Below, piece by piece: positions 23,335-32,062 of a DNA stretch of 40,917 bases. Origin of the DNA: a virus; the IMG/VR virus record IMGVR_UViG_3300020370_000012, positions 1-40,917 of that record. The stretch is one strand, 5' to 3'. Both the position numbers and the translations under genes were made by a program. Numbering within the stretch: the first letter of the stretch is position 1; each line of letters starts with the position of its first letter. Below the pieces are notes generated by a model. That model saw only the letters and a program-made list of their open reading frames with translations. It made no database searches and had not been told where the DNA came from.

Positions 23335-24875
23335 ACTATATCATGGGAGGTCTCTCCTCCATGCACTGTGCCAATATTAGCAAGAAGGAATCGACTAACT
23401 TCTAACTCTGTTGGTGCTACACTATTTTTCATATCCATAGTGATACCATTACCTACGTTCATTGATCCCTGTATTTCTCTAATTTTTGATGCTAACTGAC
23501 TCTCATAATTCTGCTCCTCTGAACCATTGATCATAAGAGTATTATTTTCTGACATTGATATTTCATTTAGTTCAACAATCTGATTGGTTAAACTATTGAT
23601 ATCTTGATTATTTGTTTGTGCTCCAATATCAGCTTTGTATACTCCACCTAAAATTTGATTTAATACATTAGAAGTGCTATTAGTGGTAGAACTAGATGTT
23701 GAACTCTTGAATATACTCTTAGCCGACTCTGCCACATTTGTAATAGCAGTTTGAGTCTGATCATAGTGAGTGTTAGCTGAAGCATATATCTTATCTGGAG
23801 CTGAACCATCTAGAGAAGGTCCGCCAGTACCCTCCATCATTTGTATTAAACTTTCATTCTGTCTTCTGCGTTTCTGTAGTCCTGTAACAGCAGCACCCAT
23901 AGGTGTTTCTGGAGAAACTTCATGGTCTTTGTTATTAGCAAGACCGAACATATTTGTAATAGTGGAGAATAATCCACCTCCTGCTATGAGTTGCTCATCA
24001 TTCTTCTGGTTGTTTATATTAGTGTCACCCTCACTTGACATATCAGGTTTTGGTAGGTCAAATGCTTCACTGATACTAGATATTTGTTCTTTTGCTGCTA
24101 CAAATTCTGGTGAGTTAGGCATTGATAGAGCAGCTAACAATCCACCTAAACCAGCTGCTACTGCCTTTAATGGTAATCCCATAGCAGCTGCTAGAGCACT
24201 CTTATACTTGTCTAGTCCAAGATCTTCAGCAAACTCGGAAGCGACGTTAGCATCACCATCAAGTCCTAATTCCTCAAGTGATTTAACATCACTATGCTCT
24301 GTAGCTGGTTTATGAGGTTGTAATGATTTCTTAAGTGGACTACCACCACTAGCAGGATTGACATAACCACCTTTTGCTAATTTAACATCACTTCCACTGT
24401 TGGTTAAATTTTTATTAGTTTGGTTTCCAGGAGTGATATTAAGGTCAGCATTGACATTTTCACTATCTGATCCAGGTTGTCCATCTGACCCATCCTGTCC
24501 GTCCTTGATGTCATCAGCAACCTTTTCTTCTTCCTCATCCTCCACATCATAATCATCATAAAACTCAATAGGTGCATCAAGATCCATTATTGGTAATGAT
24601 GCAGGATTGATGAAGTTAGCAAACTTCCTCATTGTGGTCTGAGCTCTGAGTATCTCATAACCATTAGCTAAGTCAGTTCTTATTCCACCAGATCTAGAGT
24701 CATCTCTATTATCTGCCTCGACCATTGACTGTAAGTTCTCTGCCAAAAGGAAGTCTTTATACTTGTCTTCCTTCATCATGGTATGAAGCATCGCATTGCG
24801 ATCTTCAAAGAGACCTGTAAGATCACTCAGTACTATATGTACGTCTTCTAAACTGGGAAACTTATCTGGTTCCAT
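23331..24875 (-). CDS. Tail/baseplate-hub protein of unknown role (514 aa)
   Basis: The 514-residue protein has an acidic N-terminal third (DYDVEDEEEEKVADDIKDGQ), an Asn/Ser/Gly linker, a hydrophobic alanine/glycine helix at about 230-255 (LPLKAVAAGLGGLLAALSMP) and coiled-coil-like helices in the C-terminal third. The helix could insert in a membrane or line a channel. It lies between the tape-measure-like gene and the gp27-like gene, overlapping the latter by four bases and the former by one. By position it could correspond to T4 gp28 or the distal tape-measure end, but I see no firm match. Confidence 0.55.
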   Translation of the reverse strand: MEPDKFPSLEDVHIVLSDLTGLFEDRNAMLHTMMKEDKYKDFLLAENLQSMVEADNRDDSRSGGIRTDLANGYEILRAQTTMRKFANFINPASLPIMDLDAPIEFYDDYDVEDEEEEKVADDIKDGQDGSDGQPGSDSENVNADLNITPGNQTNKNLTNSGSDVKLAKGGYVNPASGGSPLKKSLQPHKPATEHSDVKSLEELGLDGDANVASEFAEDLGLDKYKSALAAAMGLPLKAVAAGLGGLLAALSMPNSPEFVAAKEQISSISEAFDLPKPDMSSEGDTNINNQKNDEQLIAGGGLFSTITNMFGLANNKDHEVSPETPMGAAVTGLQKRRRQNESLIQMMEGTGGPSLDGSAPDKIYASANTHYDQTQTAITNVAESAKSIFKSSTSSSTTNSTSNVLNQILGGVYKADIGAQTNNQDINSLTNQIVELNEISMSENNTLMINGSEEQNYESQLASKIREIQGSMNVGNGITMDMKNSVAPTELEVSRFLLANIGTVHGGETSHDIV

Positions 24876-26986
24876 TACATTTCACCGTATTTACCTGAGA
24901 GTGGATTGATACCATAGATAGGTTTTCTTTCTACTTTCTTCGTTACAAGTCTATTCACTGGATAAGGAACAGGACTCACAACTGGAAAAGGAAGAAAAGC
25001 AATCAATGGTTTTGTTATTGTAGAGGTTGTGCTACCGTTATTTGGTGCTAGTACAGGAGAGAAGGAAGGACCTCCCATTGCTCCGTTACTACTTGGCCAC
25101 CTAACTGTCTGTGATAGAGGATAACCATAAGACGGACCTCCCATAGCATCGGTTGATGGAGGTTCAAAATTACCTAACTGAATTAAAGGAGCATATGGAA
25201 GTGGATCTCCTGCTCCACCGTATCTAGTTGAGTCTTTTATATTATCAAATTCAAAGTGCAAATGAGGACCTGTGGAATTACCTGCACCAGGATCTCCCTT
25301 GGCACCACCAGTCTTTGCTAAAACCTCTCCTGCTAAAAATTCCCCAGATTTTTTTACGAACGAACTTAAATGAGCAATACGCATTTGTATTCCAGTATTA
25401 GGTAGCCATACATCCATCATGTTACCATAACCACCGTATCTTCCTGCTGCTATTATCTCACCACTTTCAGCAAAACCTACGGGTGTGCCAACGGGGGTTC
25501 CAACATCCACACCACCATGAGGTCTCGTTCTGTTCTCTGTTGAACCATAGTAATCAGTGATATCAAAATTAGATACCATTGTTCTATCACCAGCTATAGA
25601 TGTATTACTACTACTGGTATTTGTGATCATTGTATTTCCTTCAATTACATTTGTCTGTGCTTTAACTGGTCTAGTCAATATATTTGTAATTAATCCAGCT
25701 ACAGGATTAGTAACTGTAATTGCTTTCGTTGCTAAACCCGCAAGTTTATCTTTAATCTTTGTACCGTTAAAAATTTTTGGAATCTCACCGCCAGGAAATA
25801 GTCCAGACAACACAGATGCTTCTTGTAGTAACTTATCTGACTCGGTGCTAGGAGTTGGTAATGTAGTAAGGAATCCTTTAGTAATGCCAAGCATCATGGC
25901 ACCCACTTCCTTGAATAAACTTGACATCACCTTACCCATCTTAGAATGAGGTATGACAAGTTCCCCTTCACCACCTTCACCAATTAATGCTCTAGTAGGG
26001 CGTGTGACCTCTCCACCCTCTGAGAAACCGAGAGCTCCACTTTGACTATCACCATCATAACTCTGGGTTTCTTCATTCCATTGTGCATATGGGTCTTGTC
26101 CCATAAGAACTTGAATAAGTTCAAACCCTGTTAGTCCCCAGCCAGCAATTTGTGAGACAATCTGAGCAATACCTGGAAGAGCAGCACCTATACCTGTAGT
26201 AGCAGCGGGTGATGTGACAAGAGTTGTTCCGTCAGCAGCAAGATCCATGGTAGCAAGAAACATACCAAGTTGTCCTTTCCAACCACCAATTCTTTCATAT
26301 CTCTTTATATCATTAGCTGAAAGAACCATACTTGCTACTGGTATAGCACGTCCAGCCCCCTTTGCCATAACTTTGGAGAGTCTCTTTGCTAGTGGAGAGT
26401 CAAGTATCGCTTTCATCATATCAGATACTTTATCCATTATGACTTTTCTATTTTTCCATAACACTTTTAACTTTTTAAGTTGACCAACAGTACCTTCTAC
26501 CGCCCATTTACCAGCTTTATATAAATTTTTTCCCGCATTGATACCCATATCCCTTACTTTATTCGTCAACCTAGTTAGATTTCTAGGGTTAAAGATACGC
26601 ATGAAACCTCTATATACAGGTTTCTTTCCTAATGACGACGCACCACCAAGTCTTAATGCTCCAGCTCTGACGTTACGAATCATTCTGCCGAACCTATTCT
26701 TTTTACCCCAACTCTTGAACCTCAGTCTCCTCTTAGGTTTAAATCTTATCCTACCTAAACTACTTGGAATACTCGTTCCACCATCTGCATCTCTATCTTT
26801 TTTCTTTCCACTCGTTAAAACTCTTTGTTGTTGGATGGTTGTCATCACAAAGAATCTTCTTCTATTCCTTAGATAATCAATATACTCCATCTCAGTATCA
26901 AGCATTTCCTTGGCACTACGAGTCATCTCACCTGATACAGGCAAGAGTTTAACTCCTAGCATCTTAGAGATAGCGTTACGATTCAT
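24875..26986 (-). CDS. Tape-measure-like tail protein with M23 peptidase domain
   Basis: The 703-residue protein begins with basic and helical segments (KSWGKKNRFGRMIRNVRAG), contains alanine/glycine-rich hydrophobic helices at about 210-300 and the tape-measure-type motif GGEVTRPTRALIGEGGEGEL at 324-343. A complete M23 (LytM) endopeptidase follows at about 475-585 with H490, D494 (PHGGVD), H539 and H575-x-H577 (GPHLHFEF), the expected zinc and catalytic residues. It would cut peptidoglycan crosslinks as DNA enters. It lies where gp29 lies in T4-like phages, directly downstream of the gp26-like gene and its frameshift extension, but T4 gp29 has no M23 domain. Confidence 0.8.
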   Translation of the reverse strand: MNRNAISKMLGVKLLPVSGEMTRSAKEMLDTEMEYIDYLRNRRRFFVMTTIQQQRVLTSGKKKDRDADGGTSIPSSLGRIRFKPKRRLRFKSWGKKNRFGRMIRNVRAGALRLGGASSLGKKPVYRGFMRIFNPRNLTRLTNKVRDMGINAGKNLYKAGKWAVEGTVGQLKKLKVLWKNRKVIMDKVSDMMKAILDSPLAKRLSKVMAKGAGRAIPVASMVLSANDIKRYERIGGWKGQLGMFLATMDLAADGTTLVTSPAATTGIGAALPGIAQIVSQIAGWGLTGFELIQVLMGQDPYAQWNEETQSYDGDSQSGALGFSEGGEVTRPTRALIGEGGEGELVIPHSKMGKVMSSLFKEVGAMMLGITKGFLTTLPTPSTESDKLLQEASVLSGLFPGGEIPKIFNGTKIKDKLAGLATKAITVTNPVAGLITNILTRPVKAQTNVIEGNTMITNTSSSNTSIAGDRTMVSNFDITDYYGSTENRTRPHGGVDVGTPVGTPVGFAESGEIIAAGRYGGYGNMMDVWLPNTGIQMRIAHLSSFVKKSGEFLAGEVLAKTGGAKGDPGAGNSTGPHLHFEFDNIKDSTRYGGAGDPLPYAPLIQLGNFEPPSTDAMGGPSYGYPLSQTVRWPSSNGAMGGPSFSPVLAPNNGSTTSTITKPLIAFLPFPVVSPVPYPVNRLVTKKVERKPIYGINPLSGKYGEM

Positions 26987-27183
26987 CGTCTCTTACGTGA
27001 TTGACGTTCTTTTTCTATACGTTCCCTCTCATCGTTTAACCACTTAGAAAGCATATTGACGTAAATGTCACGCTCCCAAGGGATCATATTCTCTATGTCA
27101 CTCAAGGTATATTTATGGTGTTGCACCAAGGCAAAATTCGTTTGATAGAACCTTGCTAACCCCTCTTGGAATAGGGCTATCCG
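26983..27183 (-). CDS. -1 frameshift extension of the gp26-like protein (gpGT-like part)
   Basis: In the -1 frame relative to the gp26-like gene there is an open frame of 66 codons that continues past the 0-frame stop. It begins right after the slippery site with RIALFQEGLARFYQTNFALV and ends QSRKRR with a stop that overlaps the tape-measure ATG as ATGA. It has no ATG until the middle (a 33-residue start would remain), so it is best explained as a frameshifted 297-residue fusion. The tail is helical and strongly charged (WLNDERERIEKERQSRKRR). This copies the lambda gpG/gpGT tail-assembly-chaperone layout directly upstream of the tape-measure gene. Confidence 0.6.
   Translation of the reverse strand, partial: RIALFQEGLARFYQTNFALVQHHKYTLSDIENMIPWERDIYVNMLSKWLNDERERIEKERQSRKRR
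27110..27117 (-). promoter_or_regulatory. Possible late promoter (CATAAATA) inside the frameshift extension
   Basis: CATAAATA on the minus strand matches the cyanophage-type NATAAATA late core. It lies within codons for His-Lys-Tyr, about 124 bases upstream of the tape-measure start. It may be chance, as it is inside coding sequence. Confidence 0.3.
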
Positions 27184-27875
27184 AAAAAATTGACTAATCC
27201 TTCGATGACACTAGAAGTTTTGACACCTGTGTTAGGATTAGTAACTGTAAGCTCATGGCGAAGAGTAGGCATAGTATCAAAGAACTTTTGGATACTTTCA
27301 AACTGATCAGTAGTAAGTTGCTCAAGCCAGTCTTGAGCCTCTTTAGGCGTGAACGATCCACAATCTTCTTCTCCTTGATAAACTCTGTCGATGCATGTAG
27401 ATACCAATTCGTATGGATCTATTTCTTTGTCAGTAAAATTAACCTCAGTGAAGTATTCTAAGTTAGGATACTTCATCACCACTGTCACAGTGTCGTTAAG
27501 TTTAATTGTATTAGTATGTCCCTTTGGGAAGTCAACCTTGATCGCCTCAACGGGAACAGTCACGGGAACTTTAGTCTTAGGGTCATCTTTACATGGTACT
27601 TCTATCTCAATGGTTTCTTGAATAGACCTACCACGTAGTTGTAAGAAAATATACTCAACATCAAAGATAGACAGGTCATCCATCTTAAATCTAGTTATAA
27701 TACAGTTCTTGAATATAATTTTAATCGCTTCAAGTATCTGTTTAGTATCGTTCTCCTCCAATGCTAGGATCAGAACCTTTTGTTCTTTAACTAAGAAAGG
27801 ACGATATTTTAATTTCTTCTTGGTTGATGGTACTACCAACTCATACGTTGGCGTAACAAGTTCAGGTAATGGCAT
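27177..27875 (-). CDS. gp26: Baseplate hub assembly protein gp26-like (T4_baseplate family)
   Basis: The 232-residue protein resembles the T4 gp26-type family by its N-terminus (TPTYELVVPSTKKKLKYRPF, then LVKEQKVLILALEE) and the middle motif FDVEYIFLQLRGRSI. In T4 this protein takes part in hub assembly. The gene ends VNFFG-stop, and the preceding bases are T TTT TTC, a canonical -1 frameshift heptamer, so a share of ribosomes should make a 297-residue fusion. Its position directly before the tape measure matches tail-assembly chaperones. Confidence 0.8.
   Translation of the reverse strand: MPLPELVTPTYELVVPSTKKKLKYRPFLVKEQKVLILALEENDTKQILEAIKIIFKNCIITRFKMDDLSIFDVEYIFLQLRGRSIQETIEIEVPCKDDPKTKVPVTVPVEAIKVDFPKGHTNTIKLNDTVTVVMKYPNLEYFTEVNFTDKEIDPYELVSTCIDRVYQGEEDCGSFTPKEAQDWLEQLTTDQFESIQKFFDTMPTLRHELTVTNPNTGVKTSSVIEGLVNFFG
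27183..27189 (-). promoter_or_regulatory. Predicted -1 ribosomal frameshift site (T TTT TTC)
   Basis: On the minus strand the 0-frame reads AAT TTT TTC GGA TAG, so the heptamer T TTT TTC fits the X XXY YYZ rule. The -1 frame is open for 66 codons. A weak CCCT/AGGG hairpin could start about six bases downstream. Confidence 0.7.
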
Positions 27876-27902: not shown

Positions 27903-28562
27903 TCAGCTTTCTAGAGGGATAGTTTTGGTGTTATGTGAAACAAACTCAGAATACTCATAGTACATACCTATGCTGAGTTTAACAACTCCTGATCCACCAG
28001 AACTGTATGGTATAGATGAAATCATATATGGATAAGAGTTAATCAATTTTACTGTCCATGTATGGAATTGTTGATCCTTAAATGGTGCGTATACACCAAT
28101 ATACTTCTCAAACTTCTTAATTATAGTGTCACATGTGTATGACTTATAGTAGTTCTGTACGTATGCTCTGTGGTAACTATCACCATCTGTACCTTTCCCT
28201 TGTATAAAATCTTGCCATCCTCTGAAAAATCTATATGCTTCTGACTTAACATCAAGTATAAACGACATATCCATCTCATTGAATACCTTTGCCATAGCTG
28301 GTTTCATGTTTATACCTTTATGAACCATCTTGACATCCTGAGACACCATTGATGTGCCTGGTATCTGGATCTCGTTTGCCATATCAACCATCAACTTATT
28401 GAAGGAGTTGTTTCTAACGTCGTATTTCTCCAGAAACTTAGCTAATTCACCATTAACTCCCGCAGGATCAATAGCGAATTGTAGATCATATTGGTTAGTA
28501 GAGGAAGGACCTCCACTGAACTTTAGATCAGTTAAAAATTTTGTAACGCTTTTGAGTGCCAT
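27903..28562 (-). CDS. Tail-tube-like baseplate protein, possibly gp54
   Basis: The 219-residue protein begins ALKSVTKFLTDLKFSGGPSS at ATG 28562; further upstream codons overlap gp4 and are ignored. Its C-terminal part (FHTWTVKLINSYPYMISSIP, then VVKLSIGMYYEYSEFVSHN) has the strand pattern of tail-tube proteins (gp19/gp54 fold). By place, next to gp26 and opposite gp4, it may be the tube initiator gp54, though it is shorter than T4 gp54 (320 residues). It diverges from gp4 over 31 bases containing two opposed late promoters. Confidence 0.65.
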   Translation of the reverse strand: MALKSVTKFLTDLKFSGGPSSTNQYDLQFAIDPAGVNGELAKFLEKYDVRNNSFNKLMVDMANEIQIPGTSMVSQDVKMVHKGINMKPAMAKVFNEMDMSFILDVKSEAYRFFRGWQDFIQGKGTDGDSYHRAYVQNYYKSYTCDTIIKKFEKYIGVYAPFKDQQFHTWTVKLINSYPYMISSIPYSSGGSGVVKLSIGMYYEYSEFVSHNTKTIPLES

Positions 28563-28567
28563 AAATA
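28560..28567 (+). promoter_or_regulatory. Late promoter for the gp4-gp53 plus-strand run (CATAAATA)
   Basis: CATAAATA on the plus strand, 26 bases upstream of the gp4 ATG, is a late-promoter-like NATAAATA core. Its CAT is the reverse complement of the start codon of the divergent tube gene. It is the only promoter candidate seen for the plus-strand block. Confidence 0.6.
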
Positions 28568-28588
28568 TAGTATATGGGGTGGTATTTT

Positions 28589-28596
28589 TATTTATG
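28589..28596 (-). promoter_or_regulatory. Late promoter for the tube-like gene and hub run (CATAAATA)
   Basis: CATAAATA on the minus strand, 26 bases upstream of the tube-like gene ATG, mirrors the plus-strand copy and includes the complement of the gp4 start codon. It would drive the minus-strand run of tube, gp26-like, tape-measure and hub genes. Confidence 0.6.
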
Positions 28597-29067
28597 TCTC
28601 TAAAACAAGGAAAGTTCAAACCCAAGAACTATAAGAAATATAAAGGAGATCCAACCAACGTATTCTATAGGTCTGGTTGGGAACTTAAGTTCATGAACTG
28701 GTGTGATGGTGACAGATCAGTGCTTAGTTGGTCATCGGAAGAGATAATAATTCCGTACAAATGTCCTACTGATAACAGAGTACACAAGTATTTTCCAGAT
28801 TTCTGGGTCAAAATACAAGAAACAACAGGAGTTAAACAGTATCTTGTAGAGGTTAAACCTCTAAAACAGACACAAGTACCCAAACCTCAGAAACGTCAAA
28901 CCCAAAAGTATCTAACGGAGGTTATGACCTATGCTAAAAACGATGCAAAGTGGAGGGCAGCTCAGGAATTCTGCGACGACAGAGGATGGAAGTTCAGACT
29001 CATCACAGAACGAGAACTCAGGATTAACTACCCTGCTCCTAAATCTAAAAGGAAGCAAGGTAAGTAA
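28594..29067 (+). CDS. gp4: Head completion nuclease gp4
   Basis: The 157-residue protein is T4 gp4-like: FKPKNYKKYKGDPTNVFYRS, then WELKFMNWCD, FPDFWVK and YLVEVKP. E30, D69 and E86-x-K88 follow the PD-(D/E)xK/TnsA-like nuclease layout known for gp4 of T4-like phages, which is needed to finish heads before tail joining. ATG 28594 is chosen because upstream in-frame codons overlap the divergent gene. It leads the plus-strand block, after a late promoter. Confidence 0.9.
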   Translation: MSLKQGKFKPKNYKKYKGDPTNVFYRSGWELKFMNWCDGDRSVLSWSSEEIIIPYKCPTDNRVHKYFPDFWVKIQETTGVKQYLVEVKPLKQTQVPKPQKRQTQKYLTEVMTYAKNDAKWRAAQEFCDDRGWKFRLITERELRINYPAPKSKRKQGK

Positions 29068-30639: not shown

Positions 30640-31265
30640 TGTTATTTGAAAGAGGACCTAACGTATTATACAACTATACAGATCAATACCTTGATCCTAA
30701 AGTTTATACCGCAGCAAATTTATGGAGAAGGAATGACATCAAAGATGATTATCTTTCTTCTCTTGTCCTTATGGATGAATATCTAATAAGGTCTGGAGAT
30801 ACTCCTGAGTCAATATCATTTGATTTCTATGGAAGAGTAGATTATGGATGGGTAGTTATGATAGCAAATGATATTACTAGCTACCATGAACAATGGCCAA
30901 GAACATCTCAAGCTTTAAGTGAATATGTTTATGCTAAGTATGAGAACCCTGCTGCTGTAATGATGTATGAAACTACTGAAGTTACAGATGCTTTAAATCG
31001 TAAGATTGTTAAAGCAGGACTCAGAGTTCCATCTAACTATCAGGTCACATACTATGATGGTACAGCGTCTGCGGGTGTAACTGTCAATCCAGTATCACCA
31101 GTGACATACTATCAATATGAAGAGAGATTGAATAGTGAGAAAGAAAAAATAAACGTAATAAAACCCGCCTACATAGAGGAGTTCGTAAGAGTTTACGTTG
31201 CTTCTCTACATAAAGGCGGGACTACTGTACTCGGTACGAGTAAAGCTGATATTAAAATAAATTAA
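30639..31265 (+). CDS. gp53: Baseplate wedge gp53
   Basis: The 208-residue protein matches T4 gp53 in layout: LFERGPNVLYNYTDQY at the N-terminus, LVLMDEYLIRSGDTPESISF, then FYGRVDYGWVVMIANDITSY, corresponding to the conserved region of gp53 where a small domain sits between wedges and hub. A C-terminal strand (EFVRVYVASLHKGGTTVLGT) follows. Its stop codon overlaps that of talC on the other strand in the shared TTAA. No terminator is visible between them. Confidence 0.9.
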   Translation: MLFERGPNVLYNYTDQYLDPKVYTAANLWRRNDIKDDYLSSLVLMDEYLIRSGDTPESISFDFYGRVDYGWVVMIANDITSYHEQWPRTSQALSEYVYAKYENPAAVMMYETTEVTDALNRKIVKAGLRVPSNYQVTYYDGTASAGVTVNPVSPVTYYQYEERLNSEKEKINVIKPAYIEEFVRVYVASLHKGGTTVLGTSKADIKIN

Positions 31266-32062
31266 GGATTAAATCCTACACCAGGATCAAAGTCACCAAA
31301 GTCGACAGTTCCCTGTGTCTCAGGTGTGTCGATGGTGTAAGTAAATCCATCATCTATTCCTGTAGGAAAACTATAAGACATACCATCTAATTGGTCTAAA
31401 TCGCCACCGACTCTTTCACTAGAGAAGGTGGTTTTGTGGTCTTCATCGAAGATTTTTAATCCTGCGTCTGTTAACACATGGTTGTACATCTTCTCGAATA
31501 CACCTGGTGGTATGGTACAAATATGAGCACCATTCCAGAATGCGAGGGTAACCTTAGCAACGTCACGAATAGATGCTGCTAATACTTCAGTATAGATGTT
31601 GTGCTTCTTGTAGATATCAACTATAGAACGAACAACTTCTACACCTGAGTGAGAGTTATCTTCTAGTCTACCAACGAAAGGTGAAACATATTTTGCTCCT
31701 GCCTTTGCTGCTAGGATTGCTTGTGCTGTGCTGAATATAAGTGTTACGTTTACTCTAATTAATTCTTTTGAAAGAGTGTGACAAGCAAGGAGTCCGTCTG
31801 GTGTACACGGAACCTTGATTGTCGCACAGTCACCAAACTTTGCTTTTAATCTACGACCTTCGTTGATCATAGTTTCAGCATTGCCTACGACTTCCATAGA
31901 GATATCACCGATTCCCATGTCTTTGAGTTTTTGGTACACCTGTTCTGGGTGTCTGCCACTCTTCATAATAAGGGTAGGGTTGGTTGTTACACCATCAATA
32001 AGACCTGTTTCGTATGCGTCTTTAATCGCCCATACGTCAGCAGAATCAATGAAAATCTTCAT
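31262..32062 (-). CDS. talC: Transaldolase TalC
   Basis: The 266-residue protein is a short-type transaldolase of the TalC/FSA family. Visible features are KIFIDSADVWAIKDA, VTTNPTLIMKSG, the Schiff-base lysine K83 (ATIKVPCTPDG), and YVSPFVGRLED. It exchanges dihydroxyacetone groups between sugar phosphates in the pentose phosphate pathway. With CP12 it would shift host carbon toward NADPH and ribose. The last about 50 residues (SSERVGGDLDQLDGMSYSFP, then acidic to FNP) extend beyond the usual 215-220 and match nothing I know. The gene is convergent with gp53, with overlapping stops. Confidence 0.93.
   Translation of the reverse strand: MKIFIDSADVWAIKDAYETGLIDGVTTNPTLIMKSGRHPEQVYQKLKDMGIGDISMEVVGNAETMINEGRRLKAKFGDCATIKVPCTPDGLLACHTLSKELIRVNVTLIFSTAQAILAAKAGAKYVSPFVGRLEDNSHSGVEVVRSIVDIYKKHNIYTEVLAASIRDVAKVTLAFWNGAHICTIPPGVFEKMYNHVLTDAGLKIFDEDHKTTFSSERVGGDLDQLDGMSYSFPTGIDDGFTYTIDTPETQGTVDFGDFDPGVGFNP

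Follow-up and report, generated by a model that had tools for sequence, protein, structure and literature searches.

A single gene of the T4 gp26 family, carried on a 40,917-nucleotide stretch of viral DNA (IMG/VR record IMGVR_UViG_3300020370_000012, referred to here as the window), very probably gives rise to both a short and a long tail assembly chaperone (TAC), the latter by a -1 ribosomal slip close to the end of the gene. Judging from sequence comparisons, we consider this to be a gpG/gpGT-type system of a marine T4-like cyanophage, because the heptamer at the putative slip site and the -1 peptide that follows it are conserved among relatives, the -1 extension is homologous to gp51, the modelled gp26 resembles TACs in its fold and phage T4 carries a corresponding short and long pair. 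An earlier note on this DNA had inferred the gpG/gpGT layout and it draws support from these same lines of evidence.

For the window virus we infer the following as to slippage and its rate, the stimulators, and the chaperone function of the products. Most ribosomes would stop at the TAG codon and release gp26, the short gpG-like form, while a minority would shift back by one nucleotide at T TTT TTC, with both tRNAs re-pairing on TTT TTT, and read 66 more codons to produce a gp26-gp51 fusion, the long gpGT-like form. The gp51 tail of the fusion would then direct it to either the tape measure or the tail tube protein. Slippage is probably aided by an upstream Shine-Dalgarno (SD)-like GAAGG motif and, in the closest relatives, also by a hairpin located past the heptamer.

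The gp26-like gene and its gp51-like extension

The 232-residue product of the gp26-like gene (Table 1) matches PF12322, the T4 gp26 family, with an E value of 5e-62 and phrog_150 with an E value of 5e-72, and this is the only PF12322 match in the 40.9-kb record, which is possibly a fragment. In the 0-frame the gene ends with GTC AAT TTT TTC GGA TAG, such that the heptamer lies two codons ahead of the stop. Past the two phenylalanine codons the -1 frame remains open for 66 codons, with no ATG at codons 3-30, and it terminates in a TGA (26985..26983) that shares an ATGA with the start, at 26986, of the downstream ORF. The earlier note had described the heptamer and its distance from the stop, the 66 open codons, the lack of an early ATG and the ATGA overlap, and all of these, with their coordinates, were found in the sequence as described. 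The predicted long form would consist of 231 + 66 = 297 residues. The downstream ORF is probably the tape measure gene; its product matches tape-measure PHROGs, chiefly via the peptidase region, and carries a PTRALIGEGGEGELVIP stretch similar to a motif that occurs in tape measure proteins.

Table 1. Features of the gp26-like locus in the window
Feature	Coordinates	Strand	Basis
gp26-like gene, likely short form of tail assembly chaperone (TAC-N, gpG equivalent), 232 aa	27177..27875	-	PF12322, phrog_150, AF2 model
Slippery heptamer T TTT TTC	27183..27189	-	Sequence; T TTT TT[CAT] in 91/91 distinct sequences
0-frame stop TAG, end of short form	27177..27179	-	Sequence
-1 extension, 66 codons + TGA, gp51-like C-terminal part of predicted long form	26983..27183	-	phrog_634, phrog_150, -1 selection
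Shine-Dalgarno-like GAAGG, possible stimulator	27199..27203	-	SD-match enrichment among relatives
Candidate downstream hairpin, a degenerate form of that in the P-HM1-like clade	27157..27179	-	Synonymous recoding, dinucleotide shuffle
Probable tape measure protein with M23 peptidase domain	24875..26986	-	PF01551 E 7e-14; PHROGs; position

An assignment of gp26 as a TAC is likely, independently of any frameshift, on the basis of gene position and three lone fold matches. AlphaFold2 modelled the window gp26 with confidence (pLDDT 87.6) and, in VIA-align, residues 1-95 of the model match the structures 3fgx, 3klu (YqbN) and 2ob9 with Z scores of 7.1-7.5, values which, being below 8, are moderate; the next match scores 2.4. 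Structure 2ob9 is that of HK97 gp13 and is titled tail assembly chaperone; 3klu and 3fgx are likewise of the chaperone type. Foldseek alone, run against the PDB, gave no significant match to the gp26 model (E above 1), and for a model of a T4-type gp51 there was no TAC chain among the VIA matches listed.

The -1 extension matches phrog_634, 'baseplate hub assembly catalyst' (gp51), with an E value of 3e-26, and also the end of the gp26 family profile phrog_150 (positions 230-278, E 1.7e-9), a profile that full-length T4-type gp51 proteins match over almost its whole length. A Pfam search with the extension alone produced one sub-threshold match that was judged to be due to chance. The corresponding stretch has been called as a small gene of its own, gp51, in P-HM1, P-SSM2, S-PM2 and phiM12, in the first three of these from an internal start, and it carries no annotated gene in S-CAM8, ACG-2014j, Aeromonas phage Asswx_1 and Cronobacter phage LPCS28. 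Thus, the earlier suggestion that gene callers usually miss the extension holds for the latter four genomes but not for P-HM1, P-SSM2 and S-PM2, where it was called as 'gp51'. That the cyanophage 'gp51' has been annotated as separate short genes is apparently a new observation.

Other genes of the window include a transaldolase family gene (31262-32062, minus strand; PF00923, E 1.6e-54), a host-like metabolic gene of a kind known from cyanophages. An ORF at 28354-29067 on the plus strand matches the TnsA-like endonuclease N-terminal domain (PF08722, E 5e-23) and, by its position and its relatives, it is probably a gp4-type head completion protein. Starting from the listed GTG, it overlaps the tail tube gene (27903-28625), which lies in the opposite orientation, and this start is probably placed too far upstream.

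Conservation of the heptamer and selection on the -1 frame

Comparisons were made with the best 80 IMG/VR relatives, ranging from 91% to about 40% identity and excluding one that was incomplete, and with P-HM1, P-SSM2 and 13 named phages, the hosts of the named phages being Vibrio, Aeromonas, Cronobacter, Stenotrophomonas, Pseudomonas, Sinorhizobium, Methylophilales and Desulfovibrio. The earlier note had proposed conservation of the heptamer and of the -1 peptide as a check, and both were found. T TTT TTN is retained in all 91 distinct sequences (N being C in 65, A in 22 and T in 4), including Vibrio phage KVP40, Sinorhizobium phage phiM12 and the phages of Aeromonas, Cronobacter, Stenotrophomonas, Pseudomonas, Methylophilales and Desulfovibrio. 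The sole relative examined that lacks it is Vibrio phage K444 (L095, 2001-2905), which lies outside the 91 and brings the count to 91 of 92 distinct relatives. There, an ATG that overlaps the stop of gp26 starts the gp51-like frame, perhaps reflecting a switch from frameshifting to a coupled start. A separate ATG-started gene in the absence of the heptamer, which had been named as evidence against the frameshift, therefore occurs at the edge of the family, in K444, and not across it.

The -1 frame is open in every relative for which there is enough sequence. Moreover, in 36 disjoint pairs of relatives, 55% of the changed codons at -1 codons 3-12, a segment that directly follows the heptamer and extends no farther than the first methionine column, are synonymous in the -1 frame, as against 15% in the 0 frame and 3% in the third frame, and farther downstream the corresponding values are 66%, 12% and 7%. 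The -1 peptide is therefore under selection from the slip site onwards, upstream of any start codon.

Retention of the T run could in principle reflect no more than a need of the gp26 protein for a Phe-Phe end, given that F230 is invariant in the alignment, but the codon usage at the heptamer rules this out and leaves the idea practically no chance of being correct. The second residue is leucine (TTA) in 22 of the 91 sequences and T TTT TTN is still kept. The preceding residue varies between D, S, N and A, yet its codon (GAT, AGT, AAT, GCT or TCT, with both serine codon families represented) ends in T in 91/91 cases, where 58.8 would be expected from codon use, and the first phenylalanine is likewise always TTT (expected 59.6). 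At other FF or FL dipeptides of the same genes this spelling occurs in only 10 of 298 cases. The nominal probabilities, about 1e-17 for each of the two positions, overstate the case because the relatives are not independent; kinship notwithstanding, requirements of the protein do not account for the pattern.

A more serious alternative follows most cyanophage annotations in regarding gp51 as a separate small protein, produced by a coupled start at an internal codon past the gp26 stop. It is annotated in this way in P-HM1, P-SSM2, S-PM2 and phiM12, 42 of 77 relatives carry an ATG within -1 codons 3-20, and an ATG overlaps the stop in KVP40, Ps15 and K444. We nevertheless judge it very unlikely, since 31 of the 77 relatives have no ATG, GTG or TTG within codons 3-20, and nine sequences, that of the window included, have no ATG within codons 3-30; the peptide ahead of any methionine is under selection at the protein level, the heptamer is invariant for no reason residing in the protein, and in T4 both parts occur in a single polypeptide. 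A combination of the two, with fusion and free gp51 both made in those lineages that possess an internal start, is improbable, if somewhat less so. Alongside the heptamer, KVP40 (position 2513), Stenotrophomonas phage Ps15 (2732) and phiM12 (near 2705) have a -1-frame ATG at the stop codon of the 0-frame, and many members of the P-HM1-like clade have a methionine at -1 codon 12, but the window has no such start codon and the family as a whole does not conserve it. The ATG at the stop in these three phages and in K444 implies that some lineages may start gp51 separately and, as far as their sequences indicate, KVP40, Ps15 and phiM12 could make both products. For the window, production of the long form by a -1 slip remains the strongly preferred reading.

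Candidate stimulators of the predicted slip

The SD-like GAAGG lies 9 nt 5' of the heptamer. A match of at least 4 nt to the SD sequence is present at positions -17 to -8 in 95% of relatives compared with 13% elsewhere in the gene, an excess that is partly forced by conserved Glu-Gly codons.

Most of the 35 relatives grouped around P-HM1 carry a GCCCUC-N6-GAGGGC hairpin starting 5 nt past the heptamer, and the codons that form it are strongly biased. The hairpin alanine is encoded by GCC in 41/41 sequences, window group included, against 13/354 alanines elsewhere, the leucine by CTC in 32/41 against 26/752 and the glycine by GGC in 32/39 against 6/200. When compared with synonymous recodings, the P-HM1-like clade, which is sister to that of the window, gave a mean z of -4.1, with 94% of sequences at p<=0.05, and three downstream control segments were flat. 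RNAalifold yielded zero consensus pairs for 36 sequences and essentially none in further runs, and a pair count revealed neither covariation nor compensatory changes, so that the hairpin rests on the codon bias and the synonymous-recoding tests. In the window and its five nearest relatives GCC is kept and the stem is weak, the window hairpin being non-significant both for synonymous recoding (z -1.4, p 0.09) and for dinucleotide shuffling (z -1.27). Most other cyanophages lack the hairpin; strong local folds do occur in a few of them (L075, L078, L080 and L082). The presence of such a codon-biased hairpin in the P-HM1-like clade, with a weak counterpart in the window, is apparently new.

Farther downstream, 74-110 nt past the heptamer (-1 codons 28-39), the RNA of the window's own clade (the window, L001 and L003-L006) shows more folding than expected from synonymous recoding (mean z -2.4, 5/6 at p<=0.05), which is not so for other clades.

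Short and long chaperones in T4 and other phages

In T4, gp51 (249 aa) matches PF12322 over residues 1-201 (E 3.9e-52) and continues into the gp51 C-terminus, its C-terminal half matching phrog_634, and the T4 long protein is therefore built as would be expected of the frameshift product. T4 gp26 (208 aa) consists of PF12322 alone and ends with GLKEFFELL. The window resembles this arrangement in having a PF12322 short form and, in the predicted long form, the same domain joined to a homologous phrog_634 C-terminus. It differs in that T4 employs two separate genes, 26 and 51, which are divergent on opposite strands and need no frameshift, whereas the window has a single gene with a slip site. 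A profile comparison of cyanophage gp26 with T4 gp51 (96.8%, E 2e-10) gave a weaker link than the Pfam route. In an unrooted tree the frameshift forms, the T-even gp26 and the T-even gp51 are each set apart by a single branch, and the direction of change, with duplication replacing the frameshift, is our inference. A search for related loci with the Desulfovibrio phage gp26 produced no match.

A -1 device of this kind has already been described for T4-like phages, and the window represents a further, unannotated case. Vladimirov, Gautam and Davidson (2022, Virology 566:9-15), as cited by PMC10885494, reported that in some T4-like phages a frameshift is replaced by two genes, one for a short TAC and one for a longer fusion. 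PMC12846349 cites the same study for -1 signals containing polyT in the TAC-N genes of T4-like phages; to judge from these citations, the genes and the kind of site are the same as in the window. No description of a cyanophage gp26/gp51 frameshift was found in the literature searched, in which the 2022 study was represented by papers citing it. The lambda gpG/gpGT system (Xu, Hendrix and Duda 2004) is likened here by its layout, with no known sequence relation, and differs in that the window gp26 is larger (232 aa), the heptamer is T TTT TTC and the C-terminal part is gp51. A further parallel is provided by the Vandenendeviridae and Andersonviridae (Pseudomonas phage Adele), myoviruses with a TAC frameshift at a conserved -1 polyT site ahead of the tape measure gene, although they belong to another phage group and their site is GTTTTT rather than the T TTT TTM of the window family (PMC12846349). 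Bacillus phage 0305phi8-36 has a two-gene chaperone, gp143/gp144, which is similarly a short and long pair near the tape measure gene but involves no frameshift, and we regard it as analogous (PMC2147016).

A size difference was noted earlier, with cyanophage gp51 missing the first ~200 residues of its T4 counterpart (Sullivan et al. 2010, PMC3037559), and we attribute it to gp26 supplying those ~200 residues through the frameshift. The annotation of gp26 and gp51 would thereby be corrected for many cyanophage genomes, and the poorly understood T4 hub-assembly protein gp51 would gain a concrete role, that of a long tail assembly chaperone, in agreement with published work. The hairpin, differing as it does from clade to clade, provides a ready-made series in which the tuning of frameshift rates by phages can be studied. 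More tentatively, and with a likelihood that we place a little short of even, the T4 superfamily, T-evens excepted, may for the most part set the ratio of short to long form by a three-part signal: an SD-like element, the T TTT TTM heptamer and a hairpin specific to each clade, which some clades have lost and others rebuilt. A single gene duplication may have taken the place of this signal in the T-evens. If this is so, the cyanophage 'gp51' would never exist as a free protein.
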